From Cliona cf. orientalis (lineage: Eukaryota; Porifera; Demospongiae; Clionaida; Clionaidae): DNA of 64,000 nucleotides. The notes beneath the pieces are model-generated. The model was not told where the DNA came from. It ran no database searches and saw only the letters and a list, made by a program, of their open reading frames with translations. Positions 1 through 58,735 of the stretch are shown one piece after another (within the stretch, counting starts at the first letter, position 1; each line of letters begins with the position of its first letter). The stretch covers positions 22,070,058 to 22,134,057 of the forward strand of contig OZ005689.1 of assembly GCA_963930775.1 (NCBI GenBank). Reading direction: 5' to 3'. Position numbers and translations under genes: made by a program.

Positions 1-193
1 ATTAACCGCACTAGCCAGCCGTTGCCAGCGCTATATATACGCACTTGATCAATGGCGTCACTATGATATATCATCATGTATATATATAGCATATAGCCAT
101 AAATGGTTAAACGGCTAAAATACACCAAATCAGTTTAAAAAACAATAGAATGTCCAGATGGGATTTGCTCATCAGATCTGCAGAATGACATAG

Positions 194-238
<45 letters not shown>

Positions 239-1379
239 GTGAAGTAAGCGAGTGAAACAAGAAAGAGAGAATGGTGAAGTAAGTGAGTGAAACGAGAAAG
301 AGAGAGAATGGTGGGGTAAGAGTGTATGAATGGAAGGTCTGTATGCAATATGTTACTAGTAGCAATATCTACCTGTAGTGAATAAATCTGACTGACACAT
401 CAAGATTGGTGTTGGATGCAGTGCATTGATCCAAGATCTATACTCCAAGCCTGTTTAAAAAAAGATAGTCATTTATGAGATACATGATTCTCATCTTGGT
501 GCATAATACAAATTACCATGATATTATTATAGCACAAACTTTTGGTTAGTAAGGGCTAATAATTTGTATTGGGAAAGAAATTTCTGAATCAATTTCGCCA
601 ACAGGCAGAACTACCCTACAGGAGATAGTGGGAGCTAACGAACGTTATGGCATGTGCTCTTGCTCCAATGCTTTACTACTTCTGTCTTTGTCTTCTCCTT
701 GATCTTGTTGTACTAGGTAGCTATAGCCCCTCACTTCTAGCTCACTACGTACACAATTTAATCGGCTTTCACAATCTGGGAAAAAAGACGGCAGTTCTAT
801 GACAGGAGCACTACAGGATCAAGCAGGTCCCAGGGTATACATGTAAGTATGAGTACCAACTTCAAGCTCAGTTAGAGATCAAGAAAGAATGCAGAGGTAC
901 TACTAGTTGCTACTGCTTGCTTCACAACATGTAAAAATTTAATGTGATAAAAATTCAATACCAGCCGATAGGCATTGGTGGACTCGTGGTATACTTCACT
1001 TAGCAAAAGTATATTGATGCATATTACATATACCTGAGTCAATCCAGAGGGTTTGAATAACATCATAATTGCTACAAAGTCCTCGCCAGCTACAGTACAT
1101 GTAGAGATTGGTAAAATTATGATGATAGTAGCAATCATAATACTTGTTTAAATATACCTGAGTTTTTCCAGATTTCTTTTATACACTGAAACCAATTCAG
1201 ATAGCCACAATGTCATACCTATATTTACATGATCATCATAGTGACAGCAGGTGTTGTATACCCTGGCCAAATTGAGCTACCTTCGAGTAATATCATAATG
1301 CAGGTGAAACCCTCGAACCAGGCTTGCACATTGCTGCCGAACTGTCCAATATACATACAGATGGGCCTACATGATATGT
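1..1379. other. Gene-free stretch with a (GA)n microsatellite
   Basis: No coding region is supported. A perfect GA microsatellite lies at about 195-234, followed by a duplicated ~50-bp segment (GAGAATGGTGAAGTAAG type) to about 320. An open frame across it on the minus strand is only the translated microsatellite. The rest is AT-rich unique sequence in which I see nothing. Confidence 0.6.
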
Positions 1380-2887: not shown

Positions 2888-3660
2888 CTAGCACTGTGGT
2901 TGGCTGAAACGGGTTTGGACAACAGTCTTTGAACCTGTGTACGGCTGATTACAAGCTGGTAAGCATAATATTTCCTAGTACAGTATGGGCGGTGTACATG
3001 TATGTTTGATCATATGTGTGAGGAATGTGAATTATAGGTAACAAACTAGCACTATAATTGGCTGAAACAGGTTTGGGCATTATGATAGTCTTTGAACCTG
3101 TGTACGGCTGATTACATGCTGGTATACACCTGTAATTTCCTGGTACTGTGTGTGTGTGTTTGATTTCATATAGAGGATGATTGAACCATAGGTACGTTGT
3201 GGTTAGCTAATTAAATCTAACAATAAGCTTTTATGTTTAGAACTAGCACTGTGGTTGGCTGAAACGGGTTTGGACAATAGTCTTTGAACCTGTGTACGGC
3301 TGATTACATGCTGGTAAGCATAATATTTCCTAGTACAGTATGGGCAGTGTACGGTTGATCATATAAAGTGAGGGATGTGAATGAATTATAGGTAATCAAC
3401 TAGCAGTATAATTGGCTGAAACGGGTTGGACATTATGATAGTCTTTGAACCTGTGTACGGCTAATTACATGCTGGTATACACCTATAATTTCCTGGTACT
3501 GTGTGTGTGTTTGATTTCATACTGATATAGAGGATGATTGAACCATAGGTACGTCATGGCTAGCTAATTGAATATATAAGCTTTATGTTTAGAACTAGCA
3601 CTGATTGGCTGAAACGGGTTTGGACAATAGTTTTTGAACCTGTGTACAGCTGATTACATG
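2888..3660. repeat. Alternating A-B-A-B-A higher-order tandem repeat
   Basis: Five monomers start CTAGCA at 2888, 3046, 3243, 3400 and 3595. All share GGCTGAAACGGGTTTGGACA and TCTTTGAACCTGTGTACGG. Monomers 1, 3 and 5 (type A) carry GTAAGCATAATATTTCCTAG; monomers 2 and 4 (type B) carry an extra ATTATGAT and GGTATACACCT. Spacing alternates about 157 and 196 bp, so the true unit is a ~353-bp dimer. The last monomer is truncated at about 3660. Confidence 0.9.
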
Positions 3661-49654: not shown

Positions 49655-49658
49655 ATAT

Positions 49659-50076
49659 GTGAGCGGATTTGAGAAAAGGGCCCACTTCGCGCATTTTCCG
49701 AAATTTCGTTTTAAATCGCGCATAACTTCTGAACTATAGTAGCTATGAGCTTCAGACTTGGAGCAAATATTCTTCAATCATTAGTCAACACTCGCTGTAA
49801 ATTGCGCGCCCCGCCCATATCCGGTATGGGCGTGGCGCCCGCGCGTATCGATCGCGTTTGAAATCGGCCGTTTTATGCCTCACTTCAAGCGTTCAGTGCT
49901 TTGGACAGGAGCTTAGTCAGACTCTCTAACGTTGGATATATTTAGTAGAAGGCCTGATCTGCTTACAAACCAAGCCAGAAGCCTAAGGCTCTTATAGTTT
50001 TTGTGTGGTGACAGCTTGAAAAGTGCCAAAAATTCGCGTTTTGCGCGAAGTGGGCCCTTTTCTCAAATCCGCTCAC
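49659..50076. mobile_element. Family-2 MITE, complete, target duplication ATAT
   Basis: 418 bp with inverted ends GTGAGCGGATTTGAGAAAAG and CTTTTCTCAAATCCGCTCAC extending through GGGCCCACTTCGCGC; ATAT on both sides. The terminus GTGA-CGGATTTG-GAAAA resembles family 1 (GTGACCGGATTTGGGAAAAC), so the two may share a transposase. A diverged full-length copy is at 58347-58735. Confidence 0.88.
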
Positions 50077-50079
50077 ATA

Positions 50080-50665
50080 TTATAGGGAAGCCAAAGATTC
50101 AGTTCTCCCAAGAGTAGTGGTAGCCTAGGCAACACATGTAATCTGTAGAGATTGAGGATCGCCAAATCACCACTCCCATGCATTACCACCACTAGATAAG
50201 CTATGGGAGAATGTCGACAAAATCAGACAAATTTCATCTATCAAATCATGTTAGTCAAGATTGTCGAAGATTTTCACCAGAGAAAATTAAGCAAAAGAAA
50301 AGATACTTTAACACTTAAAGGAACTGTGTCACGGTATAAGCGTATTTTTAGTAACGGAAGCCGGATGAGGATCCCCAATATTTAATCAAGAACGTGGGCG
50401 ATGCGGTTTTGTGACGTTGCGATCACGCCACTTGCTCGGGGCGCCCGTGCCTGGCCGGTTGGTTTAAGCGATCGGCCGCGTCCCTCGATGAAATCGACTT
50501 CGCGATGATACTAAACGAAGCAAGAAGGTTAGTTTAACGCTCCTTTCGATGTTTAGCCTTCTTTTTTAGGATTAGCTGCCATCATAAGGTGCCCTAGGCT
50601 CGCTCGATCGATAGCTATGGGCGTGGTACATGGCATGCGGTCGCGCGCGTGACGTGTTTCAACGT
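50080..50665. other. Left flank of the EnSpm/BEN segment, no gene
   Basis: Unique sequence, locally GC-rich at 50390-50530 and 50620-50670, with no recognised gene. A short open frame at 50203-50385 is not supported. Confidence 0.4.
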
Positions 50666-50679
50666 CACGTTTTGCGGCA

Positions 50680-51185
50680 TCTGGCAGGGATCTTGACAAG
50701 ACACATTCATGAATCTTGCATGAAAATGAGACAAGATTCTGGCCAAATGCTTGGCAGGTTTCTTGCCAAGATCCTTGAATGATTCTTACAAGATCCACAT
50801 AAGATACATGCAAGAACCATGCTGTAATCTTGCAGGCGTCTTGGCATACCCCTACAAGATTCTTGCATGATGTATGCAAGTAAGATATTGAAAATTTCGT
50901 TCTATGTACATGCAAGATCTTACAAGGCCCATGTAGGATACTTGCAAGAACCACGCTGGTATAAATCATGCAGGAATCTTGGCATGCCCCTACAAGATTC
51001 TTGCATGACTTATGCAAGTTACTTGGAAGTTTCACATGCAAGATAATGCACATGAAAGGAGAGTGTACACTGGAAATGTTTAATCAAAACAATGTGTGAG
51101 ACAGTTTATAACATAATACATAAACAGAACTGTAAGTAGTGTTGTGAGAGTCTCTACATACATGCAAGATCTTATAAGAACAGTG
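50680..51185. repeat. Left array of TTGCAAGAT / CTTGGCA words
   Basis: Imperfect repeats of CAAGATTCTTGCATGA, CTTGCAAGAACCA, AATCTTGGCATGCCCCTAC and ACATGCAAGATCTTA occur in both orientations; one ~130-bp block is repeated at about 50795 and 50915. The word set is the same as in the right array. Confidence 0.8.
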
Positions 51186-51392
51186 AGTTGAGAAGAAACA
51201 GTGTAAGTGATCTGTAAGTGATTTATAGGAGTCTACCATATGATACACAAACAAGAAACCTACCATATGATACACAAACAAGAAACAGTATAAGTGAGTG
51301 ATTTGTGAAAGAGTCCACCATAAATAATTATTATGATACACAAACAGATAAGTAATAAGTAGTGTGTGTGTCCATAACATGATAATATATAA

Positions 51393-52929
51393 TTATAAAC
51401 AGAATGGTAAGCAGTGTATGAAGTCTAAGCCTGCATTGGTGCATGCATGTCTTTGGAACTGTCCCGACACTTTTGATTTACCTTCTGTGAGAGGGTTCCA
51501 ATCATTTCCAAATCGCTTCTCTATTAGCCTTAACATCTCCACTCGCCCTTGCTCTAGTCCCGGTTTCTTGCTTTTTTTTGACTTAAAAAGGAGAGATACA
51601 GCCAATTCCTCCTTAGTAAAAAGTATGTTCAGTAGCTGTAGACCAAAGGAGTATGCATCCCTTGATGGTATTCGCATCACATTCACTCCATTAACCTGTT
51701 GGCAAAAAATGAGAGAATCCACATTACAATATATATCTGTTTTTATATAGGGGACTACGCGTAATTTCCCTAATGATAGATTACACTTACTATGCACTCT
51801 TCGTCTTCTTTCTTCACTCCTGCTGCACCAGCAATTCCAGCCGGTCCATTCTTCAGGATCTCCATCATTTTGACCATCATCTTTTCTATCTTTTCTATTC
51901 TACCAGCAAGGTTGACCAGCAAATCCTGCAATCAATAACAAAGTCTTTAGTAGGCACTGTACAAATTGTTGTAACATTATATGTACTGTACTTGCATGCA
52001 CAATGACTTATACAAAAGTGTAACACACTCACAGCTACATGTATGTATATACCTTGTCCACATCATCCAGACCAGAGCTTGCTGTGATCAAGGCTTCGTT
52101 GTCCTGGTTATCATCATCACATTTCTGTTTCTTGGATGATGGTTTGTCCTGAATAAAGATAGTCATGTCAATACACATGTAAAAAATCACAAGTCCAATT
52201 AATGCCCATCACAATGTAGGACAATGATAAATTATCTAGCTCCTTTTTAAAAATACTTACTTTTGCTTTTGCAAGGATCTCAGTCACATTCGTTTTGTCG
52301 CGAAGTCCTTCGTCGGACCCGGCAGGTCTCTTTCTGGAGTTGGACTTTTCCTTCCTAGCAGCTTTTGCTCTGGAAGGGGTCTCGGACACATTCTCATCAC
52401 ACCTCGCTTTCTTATTGTTTGAATTGTTTGTTGTACTAGCCTTGTCCTTCATGTGATGAAATTGGACAGGATATATTTTTCCTTTTATCTCCAACATCAA
52501 TTCGGACCCCTTCACTAAGTCCTCCTTGGTGAGGGGCTCACAGTCTTCTCTAGAGAGGTCCTTTATTTTCACTTGGTGTAGCTTGCCCGTCTGAGAGCAT
52601 TTCACAACAGCAGATCCTGGAATAAAATATATAAAAGGGTGTGATATACCACGGTACAGCACGTTGCTTGCTGCTATATTATTAGCTATAGTTCAATCTA
52701 CAGCTCTAAGTACCAACCAACTTTACTTACTGGTCATATCCAAGGTGATCTCTTCAAATCTAAGATCGAGTTGAGAATCCTTAAGTTTGGCAGGAAGCGT
52801 TCTCTGCCTAGATGGTTGCAGACGAGTGGGCTTGGGTGGAGATGGTGAGTATTCTTCGTTCTCGCTGGTGCTGAGATCTCGAGATCCATCACTTGCGAAG
52901 CTGGATTGTTCTGACATTGAATCCAACAT
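51393..52929 (-). CDS. BEN-domain protein, five exons, intact (362 aa)
   Basis: Exons on the minus strand: 52929-52731, 52616-52261, 52148-52053, 51925-51791, 51695-51393; all introns GT-AG, phases join exactly, 1089 coding bases with stop. The start ATG opens MLDSMSEQSSFASDGS. Residues 1-66 are Ser/acidic (STSENEEYSPSPPKP). Residues 67-185 contain a short folded-looking part (CSQTGKLHQVKIKDL, LMLEIKGKIYPVQFHH) and a Lys/Arg-rich stretch likely nuclear. Residues 218-262 include an amphipathic coiled segment (LAGRIEKIEKMMVKMMEIL). Residues ~263-335 form the BEN domain (YSFGLQLLNILFTKEELAVS, LEQGRVEMLRLIEKRFG). BEN domains bind DNA or mediate protein contacts in chromatin. Unlike nearly every other gene here it carries no lesion. 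It is divergent from the EnSpm transposase gene, sharing a 277-bp intergenic region. It could be transposon-borne or a host gene; no transposase motif is present. Confidence 0.87.
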
Positions 52930-53206
52930 GACTACGCAGTTAAATCCAATAAAAGTTGAAGAGAAGAGAGATCCTTGATGGTGCTTCTTGGAGGCCAGTC
53001 GAGAGCGAGATACGATACACGTCTATGCGAAGGTAGACTTTTATACAAGGTGTCAATATCGAGGTGGGAAAATTGCTAATTAAGCGATCGCGCGCGAGCG
53101 CTATATTATGCGCTATGCGCGCGCACACAATTACACGTACGTGCGATATGCCACGCCCAAGTTTGATACGTTTCTAAATGAAGCACAGTATTGTTCACCT
53201 ACACCG
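52930..53206. promoter_or_regulatory. Shared divergent promoter region (277 bp)
   Basis: It separates the ATG of the BEN gene (minus) from that of the EnSpm-type gene (plus). The centre is rich in CGCGCG (53085-53130, GCGATCGCGCGCGAGCGC), unusual for this AT-rich window. No TATA box is obvious. Coupled expression of both genes is inferred from spacing only. Confidence 0.5.
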
Positions 53207-56200
53207 ATGATGGAGGAGTCGACGCCGTCGAGACCACGAACGACGTATAGAAAATACCTTTGGGACCCATCCACGCCAGTTCCACACGCGACACTGTATC
53301 GCCATCAAAAGCGAACTACTGCTTCTGCCGTTGTTGATGAGGGTAAGTCGCAGTGCTTCGTTTAATATGATACTAGCTATACGGGTATTGGAAGTTACTA
53401 TTAATATTATTTAGATGGTCATCCAAAGCGTCGACAGGGAAGTGTTGATACTCTACCAAGTGCTGGTGTTACCGATGGTAAGCCTAGTAAAAAAAAAAAA
53501 AAAGAAACGTTTAGTGCATAGACATTTGTGTCGCCTTTTGATAATTTTTCTCACGTATTATGCAGACACAGAATTGTGCTCTTCTCTGCGAACATCCTCA
53601 GAATTACCATCCTCACTTACCCCTGATGAGACCCCCACATCCACTGGTTTGGCACTCTCACCACCAGGTGCTGGTGTTGACAATGGTACGCCAATTAAAT
53701 AAGTGGATTGATGTTTATGTATGACACTTCAATGATAATGATTTCGGATAAAATGCAGGTACTGATTCATCACCCTCTCCATCACAATCACAACCCTCGT
53801 GTTCAAGTTCCTCTCCTGATCTCTTTGCGTGCTCTTCCCCAGAACCTACAGCACACACCTCCCCTGATATGCCAGGGACCCCATTTAACACTGAGATTGC
53901 TGATACCTTCCTTCAACCAGTGTATTCAGATGCCAACATCACTGTGTGTGGAGCCTATTGCAGTATTATGCAATATGTAACAGCAAACAAACTCACGTAT
54001 GCCGCGATTGAAGGTCTACTGAAGCTATTGCAAGTACTGTGCCCGTGTCCAAACAGTCTACCCACTACCTTGTACAAGTTCAAACGCTTTTTTCAGCAGT
54101 ACAGCTCAGGTTTTGAACAACAACGTGTTTGCTGTAAGTGCTTTGGATTTCTTAGCAGTGGAGAGGTGTGTTCCGCCCGTGTTGATGGGGAGAATTGTTC
54201 GAAATCCGGAATTTCCTGGTTTACTTGTCCATACGCCATTTCAGAAGCCATTTCAAACGATTCTATCCAGTAAGTCCCCCTTGAATGTTTGTCATGTTGT
54301 TAGTACATAAATTACCCCCTACTTTAAGTCCCTTTAAGACCTACATCAGGGTTGCATACAGGATTTTTTGCGGGGGGGGGGGGGGGGGGGCGATCTCACG
54401 GACGACTTACATATGTATATGCGCCGCTTCCATGCATATATACTAGTAAATAAATCACACAATAATGCTGTGATAACAAACGATTTCTTTTTGCTTGTGT
54501 ATGTAATCATAAATGGAATTCTGGGGGGGGGGGGGGGGGGGATATCCCAGTGCGCCCCCCCCCCTCTGTATGCAACTCTGTACATGTATGCACATTAATA
54601 AACCATGATTCATCGCTGTTAATGAATTAACCTTCCTTAACATTTACACACAGACAACTGGGAGTACCTTCAACACGCTCCACAGCTCACAAGTGATGGA
54701 TTACTTCGTGACATTTGGGATGGCACTGCACTTCGAGGGAAGATAGGTGAAGGGAAGTTCTACTCAAACTCACAAAACCTAGGATTAATGCTATCCACAG
54801 ATGGAATTTCTTTGTTTAAGTCTTCACCGGCTGACCTCTGGCCTGTGTACTTGGTGATCCTAAACCTACCTCCTGATGTCCGGATGAATGCGCAAAATGT
54901 TGTGTTGGCAGGCCTTTGGTACGGATCCAAAAAGCCACCGATGAATCTCCTACTAGAGCCGATTATGGAGAAATTAAGGCGCTTTAGGATGCTTGGAGTT
55001 ACCATAGAAACTCCACATGGCCCGGCTACTTATCGTGCTAAGCTTGAATTGGCAGTCTTTGACCTTCCCTGCCAAAGCTCCTGCTCTTTGTTCAAAGCAG
55101 TTTAACGGGAAATATGGATGTTCTGTTTGCCTTTATCCAGGTGAATATTTCAGAAGACGACGCATTTATCTTCCAATACAGCATTCGGAGCGAACACATG
55201 AATCAGTTGTGGCTGCTGGTCGCTTGGCGGAGCTTAAAGGTGATGCTGTCCGTGGTATCAAAGGTATTTCCCCCTTGTCTAGATCACTAGACCTTGTTGA
55301 TGCTGTACCAATAGACTACATGCACGCAGTCTTGGAAGGAGTAACACGTAGACTTCTTCACTACTGGTTCCTTCCAAAATATCATACTGGGGTATATTAT
55401 CTTGGCTCAAAGCTAAAAACAATTGACACACTCTTACTGAGGCAGCAACCACCTCACGAGTTAAGTCGTCCCCCCCGTTCACTTCAGAAACACCTTAAGT
55501 ATCTTAAAGCCTCAGAGCTTCGTACATGGCTTCTATTCTACTCACTCCCCTTACTGCTTGATAACCTTCCTTCCCTCTTTTTCCATCATTACGCTCTTTT
55601 GGTGTGTGCCATGCACATTCTGTTGCAAGACAACATTACTTTAGCTCAGGTAGATGCAGCAGAAAGTATGCTGGGTGATTTTTGCAAGCTTTTACCCGAG
55701 CTTTATGGACACGAGAGCTGTACTTCCAATGCCCACCTTCTTTTACACTTGCCAAAATATGTACGTTTGTGGGGGCCGTTGTGGACCCATTCACCATTTG
55801 GGTTTGAAAATAAAAATGGCCACCTCAAACGATTCTTTCATGGCCGTGGCAACATAGTCCCACAGCTTATGTTCAACGTGGATGTTGCTTACACATTACA
55901 GCTGGTTCACCATAATCTTACACAAATGGAAAGTAGTGAGACTATAGCTTTTCTCAATAAATCAAGCCGACTTGCACCACGCTTGAACATGTCAAGAATT
56001 GGAGAACACACCTACATTGTAGGTCCTTGCAACATCAAAACACCAACACATGAAGAGAGTATCGCTCTTGGAGGCAGTGAACCTGTGCCATGCTTTTTCA
56101 AGCTCTTTAAGGATGGTGTGGTGTACCATGCTTCAACTGGTGTCAACTGTCGAAAACGAGACAGTACTGTGTGTTGCTTTCAAACCACCGATAACAAAAC

Positions 56201-56357
56201 CCATTTTGGACGTATCACACTCTTTGTGAATAGCCTTTCCCCACTCGCTCTTGTTCGTGAGTTTCGTCAGCCTTCACAGTCAATGTTACAGCAAGCTGGA
56301 CCTCCCTGCCGAGCAAGGTTAGCAGTGTACAAGGAATATGACTTGCTAAGCTCATAG
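53207..56357 (+). pseudogene. EnSpm/CACTA TNP2-like transposase, nearly intact
   Basis: Exons: 53207-53342, 53415-53477, 53566-53695, 53759-54269, 54654-56357. The first three introns join in phase. Exons 1-4 give a Ser/Pro-rich N-terminus and a Cys-rich part (CCKCFGFLSSGEVC). Exon 5 carries the TNP2-type catalytic region: LSTDGISLFKSS, LPPDVRMNAQNVVLAGLWYG, YGCSVCLYPGEYF, DAVPIDYMHAVLEGVTRRLL, RTWLLFYSLPLLLDNLP, and the DUF4218-like SNAHLLLHLPKYVRLWGPLW. Two problems: a one-base insertion at CCC 55067-55069 shifts the frame (DLP then AKAPA), and the exon 4/exon 5 junction as drawn is out of phase by one, perhaps a missed exon or second indel. The intron before exon 5 holds a 234-bp short element. 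So it is a very recent pseudogene, or intact with sequence errors. Confidence 0.8.
54347..54580. mobile_element. 234-bp element, 5-bp target duplication TACAT, in an intron
   Basis: Inverted ends CAGGGTTGCATACAGG and CTGTATGCAACTCTG; TACAT flanks both sides (54342-54346, 54581-54585). Two poly-G tracts (54373-54390 and 54523-54541). Copies or pieces at 18747, 21857 and 60662. It sits in the last intron of the EnSpm-type gene, so it inserted after that gene arrived. Confidence 0.88.
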
Positions 56358-56745
56358 TTGTAGACGAAAGTTGTATCGCTCCCCTCCTTGCCATTCCAAT
56401 CAAATTCATTCAGAGCAAGGTAGTTGTAAAAAATCAAGTCTGTACATACATAGTTAAACAACCAAATCAGTTTGAACACCATTAATATCATTATTGTCAC
56501 CAAATATTTGAATGTCTGTCATCCCCATGTTACTAGTTCGAACATCACCTCTTTTTAATCAAGTTGGTGTGCTTGTTAAGTTCATTGTGTACAAAAATTT
56601 AATAATATATAAATTTTATTAATGACAAGACTACAAAGTATGCCTAGTGGGCATCATGAGCGCGCGCATATCTATGTAGCAATTCAATGAAATATACTGC
56701 GCATATGAAGACTTGTCAGATGTGGCATTGTTCTCAGCAAGAATC
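56358..56745. other. 3' flank of the EnSpm-type gene
   Basis: AT-rich non-coding sequence with several AATAATAAATTTT-like stretches that could serve polyadenylation (for example near 56600). No further gene is supported. Confidence 0.4.
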
Positions 56746-57330
56746 TTAGTAGTTGTCCCTTGTCAAATCTTGACAAAGGCTCCCCGTTTGACTTGGAAGA
56801 TTTATGTAAGATATGGCATGCATCTTGGCAGGAATCTTACTAAGTGACCCTTGTCAAACCTTGACAAAGGCTCCCCATTTGACTTGCAAGATTTATGCAA
56901 GATTTGGCATGCATCTTGGCAGGAATCTTGCTAAGTGTACCTTGTCAAATCTTGAAAAAGGCTCCCCATTTGACTTGAAAGATTTATGCAAGATATGGCA
57001 TGCATCTTGGCTGGAATCTTACTAAGTGTACCTTGTCAAATCTTGATAAAGGCTCACCATTTGACTTGAAAGATTTATGCAAGATATGGCATGCATCTTG
57101 GCAGGAATCTTACTAAGTGTAACTTGTCAAATCTTGACAAAGGCTCCCCATTTGACTTGCAAGATTTATGTATGACATGGCATGCATCTTGGCAGGAATC
57201 TTACTTATTAATTCTTGACAGAGACCACCAATTAGACATGTAAGATCATGGAAAGATAAGGTAAGATTCTTGGCAAGATCCTTGTAGGCAAAATCTTGCC
57301 AAGACATCTTGCCTCCTCTTGACTAGTCTG
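56746..57330. repeat. Right array: ~91-bp tandem units of TTGCAAGAT / CTTGGCA words
   Basis: Five units start at GGCTCCCC near 56778, 56869, 56961, 57051 and 57142. Each contains ATTTGACTTG(C/A)AAGATTT, GGCATGCATCTTGGC, AGGAATCTTACTAAGTG and CTTGTCAAATCTTGAC. Degenerate words continue to 57330 next to the candidate element end. Confidence 0.9.
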
Positions 57331-57373
57331 GCATAATCCATACAAGATCCTGCAAGGTATTTTTTATAGGGTG

Positions 57374-58340: not shown

Positions 58341-58346
58341 GTATGT

Positions 58347-58735
58347 GTGAGCGAATTTGAGAAAGGAGTAACTTCACGCAAAACGCGATTTTTTGTCACT
58401 TTTCAACCTACCACCATGTCAAGCCAATAAGAGCCCTAGGTTTCAGACTTGGTTTGCTAGCAGTTTGGGCCTTCTACTTCACAGATCCAATGTTAGAAGT
58501 CTGAGCAAGCCTCCTGTCCCGAGTGGTAAGCCGCCAAAGAGGGGCATAATTTTTTGAACGAGATCAACATACGCACTCGCCCCACCCATATTGGAGGTGG
58601 GCGGGGCTCACGAATTACAGCAAGTGTAGCAGGATGATGAAAGATTATTCATGCCAGGTTTGAAGTACATAGCTACTATGGTTCCAGATATATAGTTTTA
58701 AAACAAAAATTCGGAATTTTCATTAATTCGATCAC
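58347..58735 (-). mobile_element. Family-2 MITE, old full-length copy
   Basis: Starts GTGAGCGAATTTGAGAAAGG and ends AATTCGATCAC; the interior matches the reverse complement of 49659-50076 (AAGAGCC-TAGG, TTGGTTTG, GGGCGGGGC, CATAGCTACTAT). Flanks ATGT and ATTT may be a decayed 4-bp duplication. Confidence 0.78.

Follow-up and report, generated by a model that had tools for sequence, protein, structure and literature searches.

The 64,000-nucleotide stretch of the sponge Cliona cf. orientalis analyzed here (the window; contig OZ005689.1, positions 22,070,058 to 22,134,057) holds a copy of a transposon in which a TNP2-type DDE transposase gene and a BEN-domain gene are divergently arranged. Sequence comparison among copies makes it nearly certain that both genes belong to one element, recognizable by CCCTA-type ends and flanked by 2-bp target duplications, and have moved as a unit, that distances between copies run parallel for the two genes, and that purifying selection acts on the BEN exon. 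By its sequence features, the element is a cut-and-paste DNA transposon with two genes and belongs to the TRC branch of animal elements within the CACTA/EnSpm (CMC) superfamily. The best reading of the second gene, which we consider probable, is a role for the BEN protein like that of plant TNPA, namely binding of words at the element ends. An initial annotation of the window had proposed a CACTA-type transposon with its own BEN partner gene, and the multi-copy nature of BEN and its location within the element ends support this proposal.

Alignment to three copies elsewhere in the genome places the window copy at 50678..57371 (unstranded), within a dozen bases of the initially annotated limits (50666..57373). 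These copies, K1 (C1:24.26 Mb, 6799 bp), K6 (C6:4.60 Mb, 6862 bp) and K11 (C11:3.11 Mb, 6850 bp), are 98.8–98.9% identical to the window copy outside gaps, and the alignment shows that 46 bp, the left terminal repeat among them, are missing from the left end of the latter. All three start with CCCTATCAGATGG and finish with TTTTTTATAGGG, giving ends CCCTAT...ATAGGG and a length of 6.8–6.9 kb, with 2-bp duplications of TT, TA and CA, respectively; both genes lie inside these limits. A 3- or 4-bp duplication was rejected for K6, as TAC/GTAC suits K6 alone while 2 bp suits all three copies. K6 and K11 are ~100% identical over 6.84 kb, and K1 is 99.6% identical. The surroundings of the three copies are unlike one another, which rules out a larger segmental duplication as their origin.

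Two further subfamilies were delimited. Subfamily A starts with CCCTAGTAAAAA (C1:33.28, 8217 bp; C6:4.95, 8049 bp) and subfamily B with CCCTAGTGAAAAAT (C12:7.97, 8504 bp; C4:5.94 and C19:3.77, both 7100 bp). All five copies have matching 2-bp duplications. A CCCTA start and 2-bp duplications are thus found in 8/8 delimited copies. Ends of the same kind enclose the paired genes in these eight, as had been proposed; the expected CAC...GTG termini were rejected in favor of CCC...GGG, and the CAC start of CACTA/EnSpm elements is absent. The general end consensus is CMCWR, although a literature search for that word found nothing. We assign the element to the TRC type because CCC terminal repeats and a 2-bp duplication, which are features of animal TRC elements (DeMarco 2006; PMC1636069), are present in all eight copies. 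Searches with 220 bp of left end located the K type at four places and the B type at four, and both families are therefore of low copy number. A lone B-type left end was also seen at C18:4073350-4074950, where the first 202 bp match at 98.5% with no right end within ~1.55 kb.

An empty site provides direct evidence of insertion. When the K6 flanks were joined with a single TA, the joint sequence aligned over the junction with five further genomic sites at 78–95% identity; two of the five were read base by base, one of which has TATA versus TACA in K6. Therefore, the element and both its genes were inserted as a single piece. The sequence into which K6 inserted is itself repeated, and copies of it that lack an insertion (C10:3.63 and C6:4.64) provide the empty site. 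That BEN is a host gene merely lying beside a TNP2 relic has virtually no probability left: apart from the window itself nothing speaks for it, and it is refuted by the multiple BEN copies, their location inside the ends and duplications of independent insertions, and the empty site. In this genome we found neither a single-copy BEN gene standing without the transposase nor element ends that exclude BEN.

Association of the two genes extends across the genome. The 217-Mb genome was searched with Transposase_21, TNP2 and BEN exon 5 as queries. TNP2 matches fell into 109 clusters and BEN matches into 36 loci, counts that are lower bounds, as candidate lists were scored for 94 of 254, 104 of 272 and 110 of 319 entries. 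Among TNP2 clusters of at least 140 bits, 18 of 20 have BEN within 25 kb and 16 within 10 kb, in line with the initial expectation that TNP2-like copies would have a homologous divergent BEN gene beside them. Every TNP2-BEN pair is divergent. Chance neighborhood is rejected by the presence of BEN beside 18/20 top TNP2 loci. A protein database supplied 363 TNP2 relatives (the best 120 of 363 were used) and 110 BEN relatives (108 usable). Those with a species name come from Halichondria panicea (TNP2) and Ephydatia muelleri (BEN), which fits a sponge host. In these other datasets, seven contigs of exactly equal size, all >4 kb, were common to the two sets, versus a mean of 0.1 and a maximum of 2 in an offset control. 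The size match suggests that these seven contigs carry both genes.

TNP2 and BEN also appear to have diverged together. Pairwise distances of the two genes correlated with a Mantel r of 0.83 (16 pairs, 0/9999 permutations), five of the 16 pairs being joined by the equal-size contig match. The correlation was 0.78 (0/9999) for 15 pairs with a near-duplicate removed, 0.64 (10/9999) for 13 main-clade pairs and 0.74 (3/9999) for 10 pairs from this genome. In nine comparisons of BEN exon pieces (55–56 codons), pN was 0.07–0.23 and pS 0.62–0.89, with pS near saturation; this pattern indicates purifying selection on the exon. Derivatives add to the picture. The C4 and C19 copies of subfamily B are 99.97% identical at different sites and have a common 1.4-kb deletion that takes away most of the TNP2 core exon (by arithmetic, ~73% of the 607-residue TNP2 open frame) and leaves BEN and both ends in place. 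These are likely a BEN-bearing derivative moved in trans. Retention of BEN where TNP2 is deleted, together with the constant position and orientation of BEN in every pair, the parallel distances and the purifying selection, makes it very unlikely that BEN is passenger cargo, i.e., a captured host gene that does not aid the element, even though BEN genes also occur outside the element clade in this genome (25 Pfam matches) and EnSpm relatives have accessory genes such as TET/JBP in fungi (PMC12730594).

Both proteins were identified by profile. The window TNP2-like protein matches Pfam Transposase_21 with an E of 2.1e-12, and the K6 protein matches the same family (tnp2) with an E of 2.1e-13 and 50.4 bits (cut-off, 28.6). 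Landmarks of K6 TNP2 are STDG at 327, FDLPAKAP at 415, GCSVC at 434, AHLLLH at 639 and FGFEN at 661, and across 14 homologues the matching columns show little or no variation. In CMC transposases, the D, D and E residues are accompanied by C(2)C and H(3-4)H motifs, both placed after the second D and before the E (PMC12730594). At the sequence level K6 fits this description, with a C(2)C and an H(3)H and with putative catalytic D and E residues. The second protein was identified as BEN by Pfam, a profile match to BANP and predicted fold. Pfam BEN scores were 16 bits for the window protein, 22.2 for an intact copy and 25.5 for the domain of the intact copy alone. The closest solved structure, as judged by profile and predicted fold, is that of BANP. 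A motif of the element protein, NQKCRD, is invariant in 18 homologues, and its alignment with DSKCRT of BANP keeps K, C and R.

The end words under study are ATCTTG/TCTTGNCAAGA and the shorter TCTTG/CAAGA they contain. Counts of TCTTG plus CAAGA over the initial and the final 500 bp were 21 and 21 in K6, 14 and 10 in the subfamily A copy A33, and 8 and 17 and 8 and 18 in the subfamily B copies B12 and B4; shuffle means were 1.4–1.8 (1.6 and 1.8 for K6), and none of 1000 shuffles reached any of these end counts. The words are thus crowded at both ends in three divergent subfamilies. In element interiors they occur at 1.9–4.7 per kb, exceeding shuffles in B12 and B4. In an unprompted ranking of 6-mers, ATCTTG/CAAGAT came first in K6, second in A33 and first in B12. 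Between the two K6 start codons lie one TCTTG and no CAAGA, and the abundance of the words at both ends with their scarcity here suggests that the job of BEN is at the ends. BANP, for comparison, prefers AAATCTCG/TCTCG, which is near ATCTTG, and direct base contacts are made by S313 and R316 of its helix 5 (PMC10206803).

Under a TNPA-like role, the BEN helix that terminates in NQKCRD would bind the ATCTTG/TCTTG words at both ends, and the helix before it would perhaps hold the protein as a dimer. It would then gather the two ends or present them to the transposase, as TNPA does in maize En/Spm, and might also regulate the element's own promoter. The words and a DNA-binding fold are both present, and conservation and joint movement of the genes bear indirectly on whether BEN would be needed for transposition. 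Possible, if doubtful, is that BEN stays outside the transposition complex as an element-encoded regulator acting at the ends or promoter, where it would switch the element on or off or shield it from silencing. In favor of this are the host BEN proteins, whose main activity is to recruit chromatin modifiers (PMC10206803), the regulation by TNPA of its own promoter (PMC1636069) and the 277-bp region from which both genes diverge; yet the words fill both ends and are nearly missing from between the K6 start codons.

Several observations weigh against a BEN-carrying element whose second protein reads the end words. BEN is missing from 2/20 of the best TNP2 loci and present at 2/89 of the remaining TNP2 clusters, which include short pieces 40–50% identical. 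Of the 36 BEN loci, 15 have no TNP2 match within 25 kb, two of these being the C4 and C19 deletion derivatives; two extra TNP2 searches, their lists compared by eye, placed none beside these 15 loci. Nearest neighbors of the two genes are concordant in only 8/16 pairs. The score of full-length intact BEN, 22.2 bits, is slightly below the Pfam cut-off of 23.2, and a broader profile reached BANP only at an E of 0.019. The dominant end word varies, ATCTTA equaling or exceeding ATCTTG in TNP2-side flanks of other subfamilies, and the end word resembles the site read by BANP only in part (TCTTG versus TCTCG). NQKCRD does not keep the base-contacting serine of BANP or the adjacent threonine. The motif also varies within the same genome, with NQNCRD, KQKCRD (two subfamilies) and NQKCLD (another). 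The NQKCLD subfamily is represented at C6:62.5 kb and at C1:3.36, 18.45, 24.37 and 34.89 Mb, and ATCTTA is prominent in the two TNP2-side flanks inspected (C6:67 kb and C1:3.38 Mb). The pairing of NQKCLD with ATCTTA possibly reflects a changed specificity, a relationship that is not clean across subfamilies.

Maize En/Spm needs a second protein that recognizes the element ends. The sponge element resembles En/Spm and other plant CACTA transposons (TNPD with TNPA; Tam1 TNP1; soybean Tgmt*) in its TNP2-type transposase, its subterminal word arrays and a second element-encoded product, for which binding to the subterminal repeats has been demonstrated or is assumed in plants (PMC2613891). Like TNPA, BEN is encoded by the same element as its transposase. 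It differs from TNPA, an alternatively spliced product of the transposase transcription unit, in being a separate gene on the opposite strand. Plant ends also differ in being CACTA with 3-bp duplications, and the available portions of the plant accounts do not mention a BEN domain. TNPA and TNP1 have little similarity, and both are held to bind subterminal repeats (PMC2613891), a precedent for unrelated binders to which BEN would add another, independent solution. Among animal elements, SmTRC1 of Schistosoma mansoni has a Transposase_21 domain, repeats starting with CCC and 2-bp repeats in 7/14 copies, and one TRC, apparently of Tribolium, starts with CCCTAG, as do subfamilies A and B (PMC1636069). 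Unlike the sponge element, SmTRC1 is described with a single predicted open reading frame whose splice variants in part lack the transposase domain, and a divergent BEN gene is not mentioned in the available part of that account (PMC1636069). Harbinger/Nuwa elements likewise pair a transposase with a separate DNA-binding (Myb/SANT) protein (PMC12730594), with the difference that both the transposase superfamily and the DNA-binding domain are others. BANP shares profile and fold with the element BEN and differs in that it is a host transcription factor, not presented as a transposon product in the available text (PMC10206803), with partly different base-contacting residues.

In the available portions of the openly licensed PMC literature (including PMC5704228), we found no report of a two-gene BEN and CACTA arrangement, and the literature examined named no DNA-binding partner of known fold for the animal CACTA branch. 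BEN as partner would give a testable two-protein system in animals. Its presence in an element connects a domain known from chromatin factors with mobile DNA, a possible source of host BEN factors, and the varying BEN helices and end words form a natural experiment on the co-evolution of DNA-binding specificity and sites. A bolder proposal, which we regard as unlikely, is that a branch of animal CACTA uses BEN as an obligatory second transposition protein reading ATCTTG and that some BANP-type host BEN factors, reading TCTCG, descend from such partners.

The copy in the window is a defunct remnant, its left end gone and both genes frameshifted. As initially annotated, the genes are divergent, with 277 bp between start codons at 52929 and 53207, and have arrays on either side that are built from one common set of short words. 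This shared intergenic region (52930..53206, unstranded) is presumably a bidirectional promoter. On the minus strand, the BEN gene comprises exon 1 (52731..52929), exon 2 (52261..52616), exon 3 (52053..52148), exon 4 (51791..51925) and exon 5 (51393..51695). Exon 2 encodes a small N-terminal region that is conserved in homologue P0001 (VVKCSQTGK...GKIYPVQF) and had no convincing Pfam match; exon 4 encodes a putative helix-forming segment (LLVNLAGRIEKIEKMMVKMMEIL), a helix being predicted at residues 3–24 of homologue P0128. Exons 2–5 form a single frame in P0001, which is intronless and was probably derived from a transcript, and the exon model is thereby supported. In several divergent relatives, a further intron apparently interrupts the BEN domain. 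On the plus strand, the TNP2-like gene comprises exon 1 (53207..53342), exon 2 (53415..53477), exon 3 (53566..53685), exon 4 (53759..54269) and exon 5 (54654..56485), the last holding the Transposase_21 core and ending where alignment to intact copies sets it. Neither gene is as sound as was first thought. The BEN gene, described as undamaged, has one frame-breaking indel relative to the three near-identical copies, near 51.5 kb in exon 5 within the BEN domain, which leads to loss of the terminal part of the domain, NQKCRD included. The TNP2-like gene, described as nearly undamaged, has three, near 54.19 kb in exon 4 and near 55.07 and 56.36 kb in exon 5. Both genes are open in K6 and K11 (TNP2, 892 residues; BEN, 355 and 352 residues), and K1 has a stop within TNP2. 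The TCTTG/CAAGA arrays of the window copy, both unstranded, occupy 50678..51060 on the BEN side (inner limit approximate) and 56714..57371 on the TNP2 side, the latter ending in TTTTTTATAGGG and including a 91-bp tandem repeat (56737-57205).

Other relatives of both genes were noted. Many short TNP2-like pieces of ~40–50% identity, beside which no BEN was detected (C1:7125540, C6:5997274, C1:25010503 and similar), perhaps belong to a many-exon or decayed sister group. A distant TNP2 type, also without detected BEN, has opposite-strand open reading frames in the equivalent divergent position (C1:9998500-10008499, frames 3091-3510 and 2-286, minus strand), and a further copy lies on C3. The one such frame checked against Pfam had no match; these may perhaps represent a different partner gene, as if the element class swaps partners. 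The 25 further Pfam-BEN matches, one of them within 25 kb of a TNP2 cluster, include several that are multi-copy in long open frames, 520–728 residues for those at C1:29350131, C1:37291144, C14:6093989 and C4:4003935, and may represent another BEN-bearing repeat. Finally, a repeat with GTGAGCGGATTTGAGAAA and inverted arms flanks the element at window positions 49655-50080 and 58343-58519, the two being mutually inverted and separated by ~8.3 kb. The right flank of K1 has similar words, and the repeat is probably a separate small family.

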